Of a stretch of DNA of 29,800 nt, positions 9,550 through 15,002 are shown in pieces. Position 1 is the first letter of the stretch. Every line of letters begins with the position of its first letter. The stretch is from a virus: positions 1-29,800 of the IMG/VR virus record IMGVR_UViG_3300031951_000872; one strand, 5' to 3'. Below the pieces are notes generated by a model. It worked only from the letters and a program-made list of their open reading frames with translations. It searched no databases and had not been told where the DNA came from. The position numbers and the translations under genes are program-made.

Positions 9550-10089
9550 ATGGATACAGAATCACTCTCATGGTTCAAAAAAGCAAAAAAAGAAAATGCT
9601 TTAATTGAATATAAAACTCAAAACAACGAAAACACTAATCTTACAAGTTTCAGTCCAGACACTTTATCAAAACTATTTGCCCCATCTTATTTGTATTTAA
9701 AACATATGGAAAAAAAGGGCTTTGGAGTCTTTACAAAGAAAAAAATACAAAAAGGAGAAACGATAGAGACCTGTTATGCAATTATATTGAATTGGAGACA
9801 GAGATATCAAAACGATCCGTCGATATATCAGTATGCTTATTGGCATCAGTGCCCGTGCAACGATTGTAAACAGCATGGATCCATGGGGGTTATAGCACTT
9901 GGATACGGAAGTATTTATAACTGCGCAGACTCTGAAAACGATAGAAATGCAAATTTTATAGTCAATTTAAATACCAGGTCTGTAACTTTTGTTGCTGAAA
10001 AAGATATAGAACCCGATGAAGAAATTTTAATGTGGTGGGGAGAAGGTTATTACAACACATGGTGCAAACCTAAAAATCAAAATACATAA
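9550..10089 (+). CDS. SET-domain protein (putative lysine methyltransferase)
   Basis: This 179-residue protein has the landmarks of a SET domain, which transfers methyl from S-adenosylmethionine to protein lysine. KGFGVFTKKKIQKGETIE is the N-SET start (GxG). GSIYNCADSENDRNANF replaces the usual NHS/NHxxxPN segment. DIEPDEEILMWWGEGYY is the EEL..Y-type end with its Tyr pair. A Cys cluster (CPCNDC) sits in the middle insert. SET proteins occur in bacteria and some large phages, where substrates are mostly unknown. It sits in the thyX string, one base after thyX. The fold is fairly sure; the substrate is unknown. Confidence 0.85.
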   Translation: MDTESLSWFKKAKKENALIEYKTQNNENTNLTSFSPDTLSKLFAPSYLYLKHMEKKGFGVFTKKKIQKGETIETCYAIILNWRQRYQNDPSIYQYAYWHQCPCNDCKQHGSMGVIALGYGSIYNCADSENDRNANFIVNLNTRSVTFVAEKDIEPDEEILMWWGEGYYNTWCKPKNQNT

Positions 10090-10669: not shown

Positions 10670-10675
10670 TATAAT
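10670..10675 (+). promoter_or_regulatory. -10-like TATAAT upstream of the tmRNA
   Basis: A perfect TATAAT in the context AAAAGTGTATAATGATAT, just after the last upstream stop codon. No good -35 box lies 16-18 bases upstream. It would start a transcript near 10682 and give the tmRNA a leader of about 100 bases. Similar GTGTAT-containing motifs precede two other genes here. Confidence 0.35.
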
Positions 10676-10721
10676 GATATATACCAGTCTCGATTAGGCA
10701 GAGTTAAAGGGTTAATTTCGT

Positions 10722-10763
10722 CCAGCGTGTTAAAAACACGGAAGCCAATGAAAATCCCGCTGG
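10722..10763 (+). ncRNA. structured 5' leader of the tmRNA precursor
   Basis: CCAGCG at 10722-10727 can pair with CGCTGG at 10758-10763. Inside, CGTGTT (10726-10731) and AACACG (10735-10740) form a perfect 6-bp hairpin with an AAA loop. The outer stem and the hairpin share the CG at 10726-10727, so they compete slightly. The region lies between the last stop codon and the tmRNA 5' end and has no open frame. It may be a processing signal, a riboregulator or just a leader fold. Confidence 0.35.
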
Positions 10764-10767
10764 AATT

Positions 10768-10780
10768 TGTTCTTTGAAAT
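10768..10780 (+). promoter_or_regulatory. boxA-like sequence just before tmRNA
   Basis: TTGTTCTTTGAAATTT immediately precedes the mature tmRNA 5' end. It resembles the boxA antitermination motif of bacterial rRNA leaders and spacers (consensus around GTTCTTTGA or GCTCTTTAA). It could recruit NusB/NusE so that RNA polymerase transcribes the structured RNA without stopping. This rests only on similarity. Confidence 0.3.
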
Positions 10781-10782
10781 TT

Positions 10783-11248
10783 GGGGGCGTATTGGTTTCG
10801 ATTTAAAATTGAAATTAAAAACGCATGCCGTGGTTAATCAGTTGGCCACGTAAAAAGCTGATTAAAAAACTAAATGCAGAAGACAATACTTCTGATCTTT
10901 TAGCCGAAGCTGAATACATCTTCAACAATGCTGACGAGTTCCTCGGCGGTATTGAGGAAGAGTCTTACGCGCTCGCCGCTTAAAAGCCTAACGGTAATCC
11001 TCTAAATCCGTTTTGAATTGCAGAGGGGTTGCAGTGAGTAGATGCCGAGCAACAGTAAAGCAAAGAGATCTACCGGCGATGGATGAACGATAAGTATCCA
11101 TAGGCAGACTTTAAATTAGGTTAGTACAACCAAACAGCCTAGAGTCTATGCTACCGAGTATGGTGGCTGAAATGTTCAATGTACTCAAGCATGTGAAGAC
11201 CTTTTAACTTAGGTTTTAAAGACAGGGGTTCGATCCCCCTCGCCTCCA
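10783..11248 (+). ncRNA. ssrA: tmRNA (one-piece) with 35-residue proteolysis tag
   Basis: A full transfer-messenger RNA, which rescues stalled ribosomes and tags the nascent chain. The acceptor stem GGGGGCG (10783-10789) pairs with CGCCTCC (11241-11247); A11248 is the discriminator and CCA is not encoded. The T arm is AGGGG-TTCGATC-CCCCT. A long helix uses AAGACCT and AGGTTTT near 11196-11218. Pseudoknot PK1 is explicit: CGTGG (10829-10833) with CCACG (10846-10850), and AATCAG (10836-10841) with CTGATT (10858-10863). The resume codon is probably GCA at 10876, 12 bases after PK1. The tag begins AEDNTSDLLA, ends EEESYALAA, and stops at TAA 10981-10983. That is 35 codons, far longer than the usual 8-20. 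SmpB is not encoded here. Confidence 0.97.
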
Positions 11249-11249
11249 T

Positions 11250-14200
11250 TTAATTTCTTATTCCAGTTAAGTTTAAGGAAAGTCCCATTTTTAATCTTTT
11301 TCCTTCCACTAAATAATCAAGCTCTAAATTTTGATTAAATGTTAAATTTATTCCTGATGTGTTTTGTCTAAAGAAAACACCAGTTTGGCTTCCAGTAAAT
11401 AAAGTTCTATTTAATCCCGTATAGAATATACCTCTTTGTTCGCCAGAGACGACTCCGGTTACTGATTGAGTTCTAAAGAATACTCCGCTTTGAGAACCGG
11501 CTCCAGAAACCCTACCGCTAGGAACAGTAGTAGGATAAAACACTCCAGTTTGAGCTGCACCACTTCCTATATATCTTCCAGACAAGTAATTAACGCCGCT
11601 TCCTGGCTGGTAAATTGTAAGATTCGAAAGATTAACAACTCCAGGATTTGCAAGAGCAACCTTCCTATAATTTGGATAGTAAGGATTTACTGTAAAATCA
11701 TAAGCATTTGAAATAATATTTCCAGGATATAATTCGACATTCTTTATAGATAATGGAGATCCAGTTGGAACATTCCATGCCCCAGTAGTTCCAGACAAAT
11801 AACTAATCTGAGGAAGAGCGTAAGTTCTTACAGCGCTCGCTCCAATCCCACTGAATGGTATTGCTGGAATATTAAAAGAAATAAAATTATTGGCTATATA
11901 CACAATTTTCTTAACAGACGATCTACAACCATTATAAAGAGTCGTACCAGGATAAGAGCATATATATCTCAAAGCATTATCCGAAATTAATCTATTACTA
12001 GGATCTATTTGAGCTGTCGTTAACGGCATGTCCGCGTCGGGTAAAAGCGTCCTTTGAGGATAAACGTCACAAGTAATCGAAGGAGTTACTCCTGGTAATA
12101 CGCTTGACAGAGCCTTCCATCTATTATCGCTTGGGTCAAAAAATTCTAATGTAGTTTTAAAATTTGCCACAGTATAATTTGTCCCAACATTACTTGGGAT
12201 AGTAAATGTTTGAGTAGGCGTAGGAGTTGGAGTTCTAGTCGAAGTAGGCGTAGGAGCTGGAGTTCTAGTTGGGCTAGCTGTAGCAATAGAAAGAGGCGGA
12301 AGCGTTGCTGCCGCTGTTGTTTTTAATTCGTATGAAACACATCCTCCATGAAACGAACCAAACGCAATAACACTACTATTTTCACTAAAAGCAACTACGG
12401 TTCCCGAAAGCTGATTTCCAGATTCTCCAACAAAACCACTATCCTGCATTAATTGCCAATTGGTTCCACCTTTATATTCATATACGTATACCTTGCCTTG
12501 CTCGCCAGCACCGAACAGAGGCGCCCCAATTATAATTCTATCGCCTTTTCCATTTAACGAAATTGAATAACCAAAAATATCTTCTTGACTTTCACCAGTT
12601 AGCGTCCCTATTAAACCCCATGCGTTATTTTTATACTCATATATTTTAACAATTCCATTTAGATTCTCCGCAGCACTACCGTCTGCTATCGCTACTATCG
12701 TTCCCGATGAATTTATACTTACGTTATTTATATAATACATGAGAGGAAGACCTGATTCGACACCGCCAACTGGCAAAGCGCTTAAAGACGAACCAAGCTG
12801 CGTCCACGAGCCGTTTGCAAACTTAAAAACCTTTGCCCCGTGCATCCCATTCAAAACCCTACACCCGCCTACTATAACAACATCTCCAGCATCATTAAGA
12901 TCTACGCTTCCTCCAAACGTCGCATTGTACGTATTGTCTCCAACAATAACATTTCCTAATAAGTTCCATTTTTTTTGAGTAGAATCATAAGAAAATACCC
13001 TAACTGTCCCGGCGTTATCCTGTTCGCCGGTACTTAGATTCCTATCTTCGTGCATAGAGCCTATCGCTAATCTTGTTCCATTTCCATTTAAAGATATTGA
13101 AGATCCAAAAAGGCTACCAGGCTCATTATTGCCATAAATATCATCGCCAACCTTAACCCACCCTCCCGTTGTATAATTATACACAGTAACTTTTCCAGCC
13201 GCATCAATGTTTCCATCTTTACCTCTACTTTGAATGCTCGAAATTGCTATAAAATTTCCGGTATTATCCATCGAAACAAATGACCCAAATCTAGCACCCC
13301 CCTCATTGCCTAAAATATCAGAACCCATTCTTTCCCATTTTTTAGAAGTGTTATTATAAGAAAAAACTCTAGCAATTCCTTTTGGATTACTGTCTGTGCG
13401 CGGAAGAAGAGTGCCCCCAACTACAATTTTTGTACCGTCTTGATTTATAGCGATTGTTTTTCTATCATATGGCGAAGTTTCAATATCGGCATCATCTGCG
13501 GATTTTTTCCATGGTATTAAATTTTCTCCGCGTTTGGTTTTATAGTTTGACGTAACAACCTGAGTCGGAGTAGGTGTCGGAGTCCTCGTAGGGGTTGCGC
13601 TCGGAGTCGTGGTAGGAGTTCTACTTGGAGTTGTTGTTGGAGTAGAAGTGGGACTTTGTGTCGCCGAAGGAGACGGAGTTGGAGTTGCTTGCCATTTATA
13701 TCTTCCCGTTCTAGATATGTCTATTAAATCATCCGTTTTTGTAATGACAGAGCCAGATGTTCTTTTTCCCATGAAAATAGTACCAGGATCTTCAAAACTA
13801 CATCTTGTTTCGATTTTAGTTATATATTCAAAATTGACAGTATAATAACTACTAAGCAATAAATCATTCGTGGTTTGCGGTCCATTAAGGGATGAACCTA
13901 CTAAACCGTCATAAAAGAAAGTGATTTTAGTATCGCTTGTAGTTAATTGATTTAAATTTAAAACACCGTTATTTAAACTTAAAGTTCTTCCAGACTGCCC
14001 AGTAAGACCGCCCCCTGATTTTACAGTCAATGGATAATTAGCGCTTGGCAAATTAGTCCAACCGCCTACCTTTTTGTATTGTAATGTAGGAGTAAATTGT
14101 ATTGAAGTTGCGCCGCCTGACAAAATAAAATTACCACTTGTATTTTTATATATTTTAATAGTAGCTCCGCCACTTGAACCTAATCCGTTAGTTTGAAATA

Positions 14201-15002
14201 CCCCACCTGGAACTGTTCCATTAATTCTGGTTTCAAATTTTGCCTTAGAAAATATTAAAGCTTTGGAACTTTTTTTCTTTTCCAAGCAAGAAAAACTCCT
14301 AAAAGGATACACGCAAGGACCCTCTTTAAATACTAAATAGTATTCCTCATTTTCAAATCCAAAACTCGAAGCCGGAACCGCACCAAATCTGTCTGTATAT
14401 ACAGTACTAAAACCTCCAGAACTTGCAGTCGGAGTTTTTGCTATAAAAATTTTTCTTTTATTATTTTTTCCCTCTAGCCATAAATTGGAATGTCCTATAT
14501 TTCTTCTACCATTTCCAGAAGTTTGAAACGGGGTAGGTTCAGTCCATATACCAGGAAGATTATCTATGCTTATTAAAAAATCACCCCTTACCTCTCCCCC
14601 TAGAAGTGCAAGTGGTCTTTTCCATTTAAAATTAAAAGGAGGCGAAGCTAGAGTATTAGATCCATTAACAGTTATTGTACCATCAATTGGATCTTTATAA
14701 ACCAAATATTTTGGCGAACTATTGGTGATAAAATCAAGCTCAACACTAACAGAAGTTGCACCAATCGGACACTTGGGGCAAACAAGCGGTGGAAACACTG
14801 GAGGTACGCCTCCACCTCCACCTCCACTACCCGCTGATCCATTTCCAGCTCCCGTATTTGTACCAGAATTAGAACCAGTTCCACCAGTTGGCGGACCAGG
14901 TGTTGGCGTAGGTTGGCTAGGTCCTGGCGTTCTTGTTGGCAGAGGAGCAGGTGTTCGAGTAGGACCATAGGGATTACCAACCATGTAAGTATTAATTGAC
15001 AT
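11250..15002 (-). CDS. giant modular fibre/adhesin-like protein with Pro-Thr linkers and beta-propeller
   Basis: This is a 1250-residue protein and the only clear minus-strand gene. Order of parts: a short start; Pro-Thr linker 1 (about residues 13-41) and a Gly/Ser-rich hinge with CPKC; a beta-rich region to about 435; Pro-Thr linker 2 (about 438-481); a beta-propeller-like region (about 487-890) with six or so repeats of W..lG..i.G....FG.SvslN..G..iaiG; Pro-Thr linker 3 (about 906-931); a beta-rich region; and four C-terminal repeats centred on TGVFF/SGVFF. There is no signal peptide, so a virion tail fibre or surface adhesin is likelier than a secreted protein. The start has no Shine-Dalgarno; Met7 is an alternative. 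Confidence 0.85.
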   Translation of the reverse strand: MSINTYMVGNPYGPTRTPAPLPTRTPGPSQPTPTPGPPTGGTGSNSGTNTGAGNGSAGSGGGGGGVPPVFPPLVCPKCPIGATSVSVELDFITNSSPKYLVYKDPIDGTITVNGSNTLASPPFNFKWKRPLALLGGEVRGDFLISIDNLPGIWTEPTPFQTSGNGRRNIGHSNLWLEGKNNKRKIFIAKTPTASSGGFSTVYTDRFGAVPASSFGFENEEYYLVFKEGPCVYPFRSFSCLEKKKSSKALIFSKAKFETRINGTVPGGVFQTNGLGSSGGATIKIYKNTSGNFILSGGATSIQFTPTLQYKKVGGWTNLPSANYPLTVKSGGGLTGQSGRTLSLNNGVLNLNQLTTSDTKITFFYDGLVGSSLNGPQTTNDLLLSSYYTVNFEYITKIETRCSFEDPGTIFMGKRTSGSVITKTDDLIDISRTGRYKWQATPTPSPSATQSPTSTPTTTPSRTPTTTPSATPTRTPTPTPTQVVTSNYKTKRGENLIPWKKSADDADIETSPYDRKTIAINQDGTKIVVGGTLLPRTDSNPKGIARVFSYNNTSKKWERMGSDILGNEGGARFGSFVSMDNTGNFIAISSIQSRGKDGNIDAAGKVTVYNYTTGGWVKVGDDIYGNNEPGSLFGSSISLNGNGTRLAIGSMHEDRNLSTGEQDNAGTVRVFSYDSTQKKWNLLGNVIVGDNTYNATFGGSVDLNDAGDVVIVGGCRVLNGMHGAKVFKFANGSWTQLGSSLSALPVGGVESGLPLMYYINNVSINSSGTIVAIADGSAAENLNGIVKIYEYKNNAWGLIGTLTGESQEDIFGYSISLNGKGDRIIIGAPLFGAGEQGKVYVYEYKGGTNWQLMQDSGFVGESGNQLSGTVVAFSENSSVIAFGSFHGGCVSYELKTTAAATLPPLSIATASPTRTPAPTPTSTRTPTPTPTQTFTIPSNVGTNYTVANFKTTLEFFDPSDNRWKALSSVLPGVTPSITCDVYPQRTLLPDADMPLTTAQIDPSNRLISDNALRYICSYPGTTLYNGCRSSVKKIVYIANNFISFNIPAIPFSGIGASAVRTYALPQISYLSGTTGAWNVPTGSPLSIKNVELYPGNIISNAYDFTVNPYYPNYRKVALANPGVVNLSNLTIYQPGSGVNYLSGRYIGSGAAQTGVFYPTTVPSGRVSGAGSQSGVFFRTQSVTGVVSGEQRGIFYTGLNRTLFTGSQTGVFFRQNTSGINLTFNQNLELDYLVEGKRLKMGLSLNLTGIRN
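11340..11580 (-). repeat. four C-terminal GVF(F/Y) repeats of the adhesin
   Basis: Near the C-terminus the protein repeats a unit of about 17-22 residues: QTGVFYPTTVPSGRV, QSGVFFRTQSVTGVV, QRGIFYTGLNRTLF, QTGVFFRQNTSGINL. The units are diverged at DNA level. They resemble a short beta-stranded repeat such as a stem or fibre tip. Confidence 0.65.
12209..12285 (-). repeat. Pro-Thr linker 3 in the adhesin
   Basis: Low-complexity codons encode alternating Pro, Thr, Ser, Arg and Ala (SPTRTPAPTPT then STRTPTPTPTQT) between the propeller and the next beta region. It is an extended, flexible, possibly glycosylated spacer. Confidence 0.75.
12330..13545 (-). other. beta-propeller-like (FG-GAP-type) repeat region
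   Basis: About six repeats of 55-65 residues each carry W..lG..i.G....FG.S.slN..G..iaiG......G.v.Vy.Y. Clear copies contain ARFGSFVSMDNTGNFIAIS, SLFGSSISLNGNGTRLAIG, ATFGGSVDLNDAGDVVIVG and DIFGYSISLNGKGDRIIIG. This spacing is typical of FG-GAP propeller blades, which often bind glycans or proteins. Confidence 0.7.
13558..13688 (-). repeat. Pro-Thr linker 2 in the adhesin
   Basis: The longest of three Pro-Thr tracts, about 43 residues of TPT, SPT, SAT and RTP units. It joins the N-terminal beta region to the propeller. The DNA is a run of GGAGT(T/C)G-like triplet variants on the plus strand. Confidence 0.75.
14880..14966 (-). repeat. Pro-Thr linker 1 in the adhesin
   Basis: Near the N-terminus, residues 13-41 read GPTRTPAPLPTRTPGPS followed by QPTPTPGPP. 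A Gly/Ser/Asn-rich hinge with six consecutive Gly follows. It probably separates a virion-attachment end from the folded domains. Confidence 0.75.

Follow-up and report, generated by a model that had tools for sequence, protein, structure and literature searches.

A 29.8-kb IMG/VR virus record, the whole of which we call the window, carries a phage tmRNA (ssrA) gene whose resume codon opens a 35-codon tag, and comparison with related sequences establishes that this tag is under selection as protein. The gene is probably functional, its tag likely combining a Clp-type degron with a second, helical recognition element. Other genes in the record encode a DnaE-type DNA polymerase, an exonuclease subunit, ThyX, an RNA ligase and glycosyltransferases. 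The covariance model RF00023 matches positions 10783-11251 end to end (model positions 1-374; 109.7 bits, E 2.6e-42; gathering score 47); positions here and below refer to the window and its plus strand unless marked otherwise. The one-piece gene occupies 10783-11248 (466 nt), with 5' and 3' ends as in 35 other complete relatives, and CCA is not encoded at its 3' end, 11248. The 5' strand of the acceptor stem, GGGGGCG with G3 (10783-10789), pairs with 11241-11247, the 3' strand CGCCUCC that holds U70; discriminator A73 follows, closing the element at 11248. Relatives display compensatory changes in this stem (GCG/CGC, GUG/CAC, AUG/CAU and AAG/CUU) while keeping U70 of the G3.U70 pair, and 33 of the 36 complete family genes have A as discriminator. 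The T arm, AGGGG-UUCGAUC-CCCCU, lies at 11224-11240, as read from the sequence and RF00023. Pseudoknot PK1 spans 10829-10863 (10829-10833 with 10846-10850; 10836-10841 with 10858-10863); among 35 distinct sequences, two-sided changes occur at 9 of the 13 pairs counted, and the structure is lost if the alignment is shifted by 1-3 columns. With the tag hairpin described below included, the covariation score is 0.311, against 0.123 in shuffled and at most 0.044 in slid alignments. The middle region, PK2-PK3, aligns to RF00023 at low posterior, and the PK2/PK3/PK4 part varies in length among relatives. An earlier note on this DNA had placed a tmRNA at 10783-11248 with an acceptor stem, T arm and PK1, and the present analysis supports that placement.

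The 5' leader of the mature tmRNA (10683-10782) is partly conserved in the alignment with contigs L010, L008 and L003. Upstream, the sequence TATAAT (10670-10675) is a possible but weak -10 element of the tmRNA promoter; no good -35 was seen near it, and a consensus promoter scan did not return the site. Two neighbouring genes are of separate note. One, at 9550-10089 (+), encodes a SET-domain protein of the lysine methyltransferase type (PF00856, E 1.6e-10), unusual in a phage. The other, at 11250-15002 (-), encodes a 1250-aa protein, perhaps a fibre, with a weak FG-GAP repeat match; its stop codon adjoins the tmRNA 3' end.

The covariance model, proposed earlier as a check, returned a high score and put the resume codon at GCA 10876, not later. 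From there the tag reading frame, which has no start codon, runs for 35 codons to TAA at 10981-10983 (10876-10983), and translation of 10876-10980 gives AEDNTSDLLAEAEYIFNNADEFLGGIEEESYALAA. The GCA follows PK1 at a distance of 12 nt and the tmRNA 5' end at 93 nt, and in 36 of 36 complete genes the resume GCA falls 90-95 nt from that end. In E. coli the distance from PK1 to the resume codon, G90, is also 12 nt, and A86, four bases upstream, determines the frame (PMC2481249). Family comparison identifies U(-5) A(-4) at 10871-10872 as the equivalent of the frame-setting E. coli U85 A86: each of the 56 distinct members of the family has UAA at -5 to -3 ahead of GCA, without an unresolved case. The PK1 distance, the invariant U(-5)A(-4) and the selection on all 35 codons lead us to take GCA 10876 as the true start, which, together with the RF00023 match, supports the resume codon and 35-residue tag first read from the sequence. 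The description of this tag as unusually long holds against the commonest length of 10 residues given in PMC11915505, though published tags are already said in a review to span 8-35 residues (PMC8012679). Two other readings of the region were rejected: ATG 10874 as an ordinary start, whose frame ends after nine codons, and a small independent gene read in the tag frame, which lacks a start codon and is always positioned after PK1. Tag codons 1-7 carry both a protein and an RNA-hairpin layer. The hairpin, a CAGAAG/CUUCUG stem at 10877-10894, is present in most members and missing in some, and its pair 10881/10890 appears among relatives as A-U, C-G, G-U and U-A.

ARAGORN, the other program suggested at the outset, reported nothing in the window; confirmation of the structure and resume codon came from the Rfam model. 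We attribute this silence to the program's reach. When the E. coli ssrA tag was lengthened in silico, ARAGORN was correct up to 33 residues and never from 34 up. Of the 36 complete family genes, 12 escaped it and 23 were given truncated tags, and it was right for a single one, with a 32-residue tag; the tags it gives in relatives mostly start EAEY..., and some even read ADEEMLLAA. These outputs would fit a real tag of only 25 residues beginning at GAA 10906 (EAEYIFNNADEFLGGIEEESYALAA), the first ten codons being an untranslated spacer, and the site UUAGCC/GAA indeed has U(-5)A(-4), similar to UAGUC. However, a program that cannot handle more than 33 residues must search further in, and roughly 16 of the 53 distinct coding sequences lack A(-4) at this site (L9 codon TTG or other), whereas the UAA before GCA never fails in the 56 distinct members. 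The site is also some 42 nt past PK1, compared with 12 for GCA, and codons 1-10, the supposed spacer, evolve at a dN/dS of 0.28; we therefore regard the shorter tag as very improbable. ARAGORN is also wrong on eight family genes with 33-residue tags, which the ceiling alone does not explain, and we propose that the UUAGCC/GAA site may act as a decoy inside the tag in these genes. Phage tmRNA surveys lean on ARAGORN and BRUCE (PMC4131195, PMC9004378), and phage or metagenome surveys relying on ARAGORN will therefore have missed such genes or logged false short tags.

The proposed comparison with related phage genomes revealed a long-tag tmRNA family that is widespread in phages. Relatives were gathered by their DNA polymerase, by a degenerate DLLAEAEYI pattern and by a tmRNA 5'-end pattern blind to the tag. 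At least 56 distinct IMG/VR sequences have long tags, of 32-45 residues; the scans used exact patterns, and the count is a lower bound. The polymerase search yielded 13 related contigs; in six of these a tmRNA passes the Rfam threshold, and in a seventh the contig end interrupts it. All 48 DLLAEAEYI-coding stretches in IMG/VR fall inside such tmRNA tags. The 45-residue tags, in L032 (1-462, +) and L033 (9671-10141, -), both Rfam tmRNAs, exceed the 8-35 range of PMC8012679. These two have an unusual T loop and a second segment, DVVDSVVDFF, similar to the VVEFF tags found in L111 and L113. Two close polymerase relatives have a tRNA-Gly(UCC) in the place of the tmRNA (L004, 8386-8459, +; L005, 18084-18157, +), and no tmRNA was found in one further polymerase relative; the tmRNA gene is thus dispensable in the group, and the tRNA-Gly replacements suggest that small RNA genes are swapped at one locus. 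INPHARED, searched by tag and by DNA, contained no relatives except short tRNA-like stretches, and TerL, compared with a view to the host, has only distant relatives (about 35% identical), in phages of Rhizobium/Agrobacterium and of Synechococcus, too remote for a host assignment.

Partial forms also came to light. L080 (7535-7613, +) contains what appears to be a tmRNA tRNA-like domain alone, of about 76-80 nt and with no tag, and L097, L106 and L144, close to their pattern matches, seem to hold similar domains of this size, likewise tagless. Mycobacteriophage DS6A reportedly has a tRNA-like domain alone, a molecule that is said to inhibit tmRNA. L143 (3858, +), L098 (17, +) and L086 (327, +) have the tmRNA 5' part and a tag but, within the stretch inspected, lack an evident tRNA-like half on the 3' side, and are perhaps split or truncated tmRNA forms.

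The 35-codon frame is kept in relatives through silent changes, and tag lengths differ by whole codons, which argues that the tag is more than a chance reading frame. Because most relatives had been fetched through DLLAEAEYI, a source of bias, selection was retested on 25 motif-independent sequences, those to which the 5' tmRNA pattern or the polymerase alone had led. In this sample dN/dS is 0.28 for codons 1-10 (95% bootstrap over sequences 0.22-0.37), 0.065 for codons 11-23 (0.047-0.085) and 0.32 for codons 24-35 (0.28-0.39); across the full set, pN/pS in the two alternative frames is 1.4-1.5. Taken together, these values indicate that the whole tag is selected as protein, and its middle more strongly than the degron end. 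The suspicion raised in the earlier note, that the extra residues matter, gains weight accordingly: conservation within the tag peaks at codons 11-23, which include EYIFNN.

From the dN/dS profile and AlphaFold we delimit a conserved core, DLLAEAEYIFNNADEFL, at tag codons 7-23 (10894-10944), predicted to be a helix. AlphaFold2, given 30 aligned tags, predicts helices at residues 5-17 and 19-34, but its confidence is high at about residues 11-20 alone (mean pLDDT ~91); helices this short are easily over-predicted. Judged against shuffled sequences, the core is amphipathic (p 0.02). It has no Pfam match, its best PDB hit has an E-value of 0.6, and its motif is absent elsewhere in the 17 phage records. 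A search of 84,980 cellular species (one genome per species) with the strict pattern AEAEYI.N.A gave five matches, none of them in a tmRNA, and a host source of the tag was rejected on this result, although a diverged host tag could escape so strict a pattern.

At its C-terminus the window tag has an ALAA-like end of the Clp-type ssrA degron, YALAA (10966-10980), of the ClpX/ClpA type by its sequence. Other family ends include YELAA, LLAA, YEYAA, ALVA, ALEA and LLTA; leucine is third-last and alanine second-last in 49 of 53 distinct coding sequences each, and the final alanine is present in 53 of 53. YALAA is thus not typical of the family as a whole, and its normal recognition by ClpXP/ClpAP is no more than plausible. 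Neither SmpB nor SspB was found in the phage records, so that host SmpB is presumably used, and ClpP occurs in only 2 of the 17, too few to carry an argument. This ClpP-like peptidase gene, in L251 (1414-2082, -) and L252 (records G028 and G026), shares its strand with the long-tag tmRNA, some 5.4 kb away, and adjoins a gene resembling a polymerase exonuclease subunit; by eye, the residues of a Ser-His-Asp triad are apparently present.

We infer from these features that the tmRNA is active and uses SmpB. Host AlaRS would charge it with alanine, given G3.U70 and A73, and host SmpB and EF-Tu would bind it and bring it into stalled ribosomes. Translation would then resume at GCA 10876, giving the nascent chain an alanine and the 35-residue tag. 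This tag would have two modules: a core, DLLAEAEYIFNNADEFL, that is conserved and probably helical, and a C-terminus that is ALAA-like but variable. The core would serve a host protease or adaptor as a second recognition element alongside the C-terminal Clp-type signal, and products tagged during infection would be routed by the phage's own signal. Conservation, predicted helicity and amphipathicity, with the precedent of Lon recognition in Mycoplasma, suggest such an element; whether its partner is the host degradation machinery, as protease or adaptor, we judge to be about evenly balanced.

Other roles for the extension have to be weighed against this one. It might be a mere linker, indifferent to sequence, that extends into the protease or offers it a place to initiate: tag length does range from 32 to 45 residues, and longer, less structured C-terminal segments can help AAA+ proteases engage. 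A linker should nevertheless vary in sequence, whereas codons 11-23 have a dN/dS of 0.065, below that of the C-terminus, and the region is predicted to be helical, which makes this reading unlikely. A better case can be made for a use other than degradation, in which the core might, for example, have a protein partner of phage or host origin, hide the degron or yield a bioactive peptide, and rescue is a shared benefit. In favour are the stronger conservation of the core than of the degron end and the altered ends ALEA, LLTA, YEYAA and ALVA of several members; on the other hand, most ends are still x-L-A-A with an invariant final alanine, and no other protein with the core motif was found in the 17 phage records. 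We give such a use a real but minor chance. Integration at ssrA is frequent among phages and islands, which then bear fragments of the gene (PMC9004378, PMC11915505), and this might recommend a fossil without function or what is left of an attachment site in a host ssrA; but the gene is complete, its structure covaries, its codons are selected across 56 sequences and the strict motif is in none of the tmRNAs of the cellular species tested, so that a fossil is hardly credible.

The reading that we prefer thus remains a Clp-type degron joined to a second recognition element. A bolder form of it, which we offer tentatively, is that the tmRNA of these large phages of an uncultured group would write a phage-specific, folded helical domain on stalled proteins, and that this domain rather than the ALAA end would be the main signal, diverting them from their usual fate in the host to a protease, adaptor or other use of the phage's choosing. 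tmRNA tags are usually viewed as short, simple degrons. A long tag with an interior conserved beyond its degron end suggests that tags can hold a second functional module, and provides a setting in which the rewriting of a host protein quality-control mark by a phage can be tested directly.

Different long tags are present in other viral contigs. The tag AESNFDFAPSVAEADAFLKASGFVDAELLAA and its variants, of 30-31 residues, are found in L107, L211, L231, L234, L247 and L249; L021 probably holds a relative of these tags, and L108 another that has 34 residues. L113 and L111 carry AKAITSAVEAVKSAWSNVVEFFAPEENYCLMAA and a variant of it, and L109 has an unrelated 34-residue tag; these tags were read from the sequence. 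L021, L107, L108, L109, L111 and L113 are Rfam tmRNAs, and AEA(D/E) is common to the AESNFDFAPSVAEADAFLKASGFVDAELLAA group and the window family. Long tags therefore seem to exist in more than one phage lineage.

The window gene resembles E. coli ssrA and RF00023 in its G3.U70 acceptor stem, T arm, PK1, ALAA-like tag end and stop, and in resuming 12 nt beyond PK1 at a codon preceded by U(-5)A(-4). It differs from E. coli ssrA in being phage-borne, in a tag of 35 rather than 10 codons and in the hairpin within the first tag codons, and from the RF00023 standard in its poorly aligned, low-posterior PK2-PK3 region. Phage tmRNAs are known from mycobacteriophages Bxz1, Cali, Catera and Wildcat, from Bacillus phage G and from Melnitz, and from 402 of 18,146 phages in one survey; the window gene is likewise carried by a phage and presumed to use host SmpB, but no tag of its type was found in INPHARED. 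The nearest functional precedent appears to be the extended tags of Mycoplasma and Mesoplasma, which carry Lon signals (Ge and Karzai 2009, as cited in PMC3985003 and PMC9382460). No similarity of the core to these tags was seen, and the AFA end of the Lon-type Mycoplasma tag is replaced in the window family by ALAA-like ends. The Mycoplasma and Mesoplasma tags belong to cellular genes, end in AFA and operate in hosts without ClpXP/ClpAP, in contrast to the phage-borne, ALAA-like window family, which they nonetheless resemble in being long, with protease-recognition determinants added to the tag.
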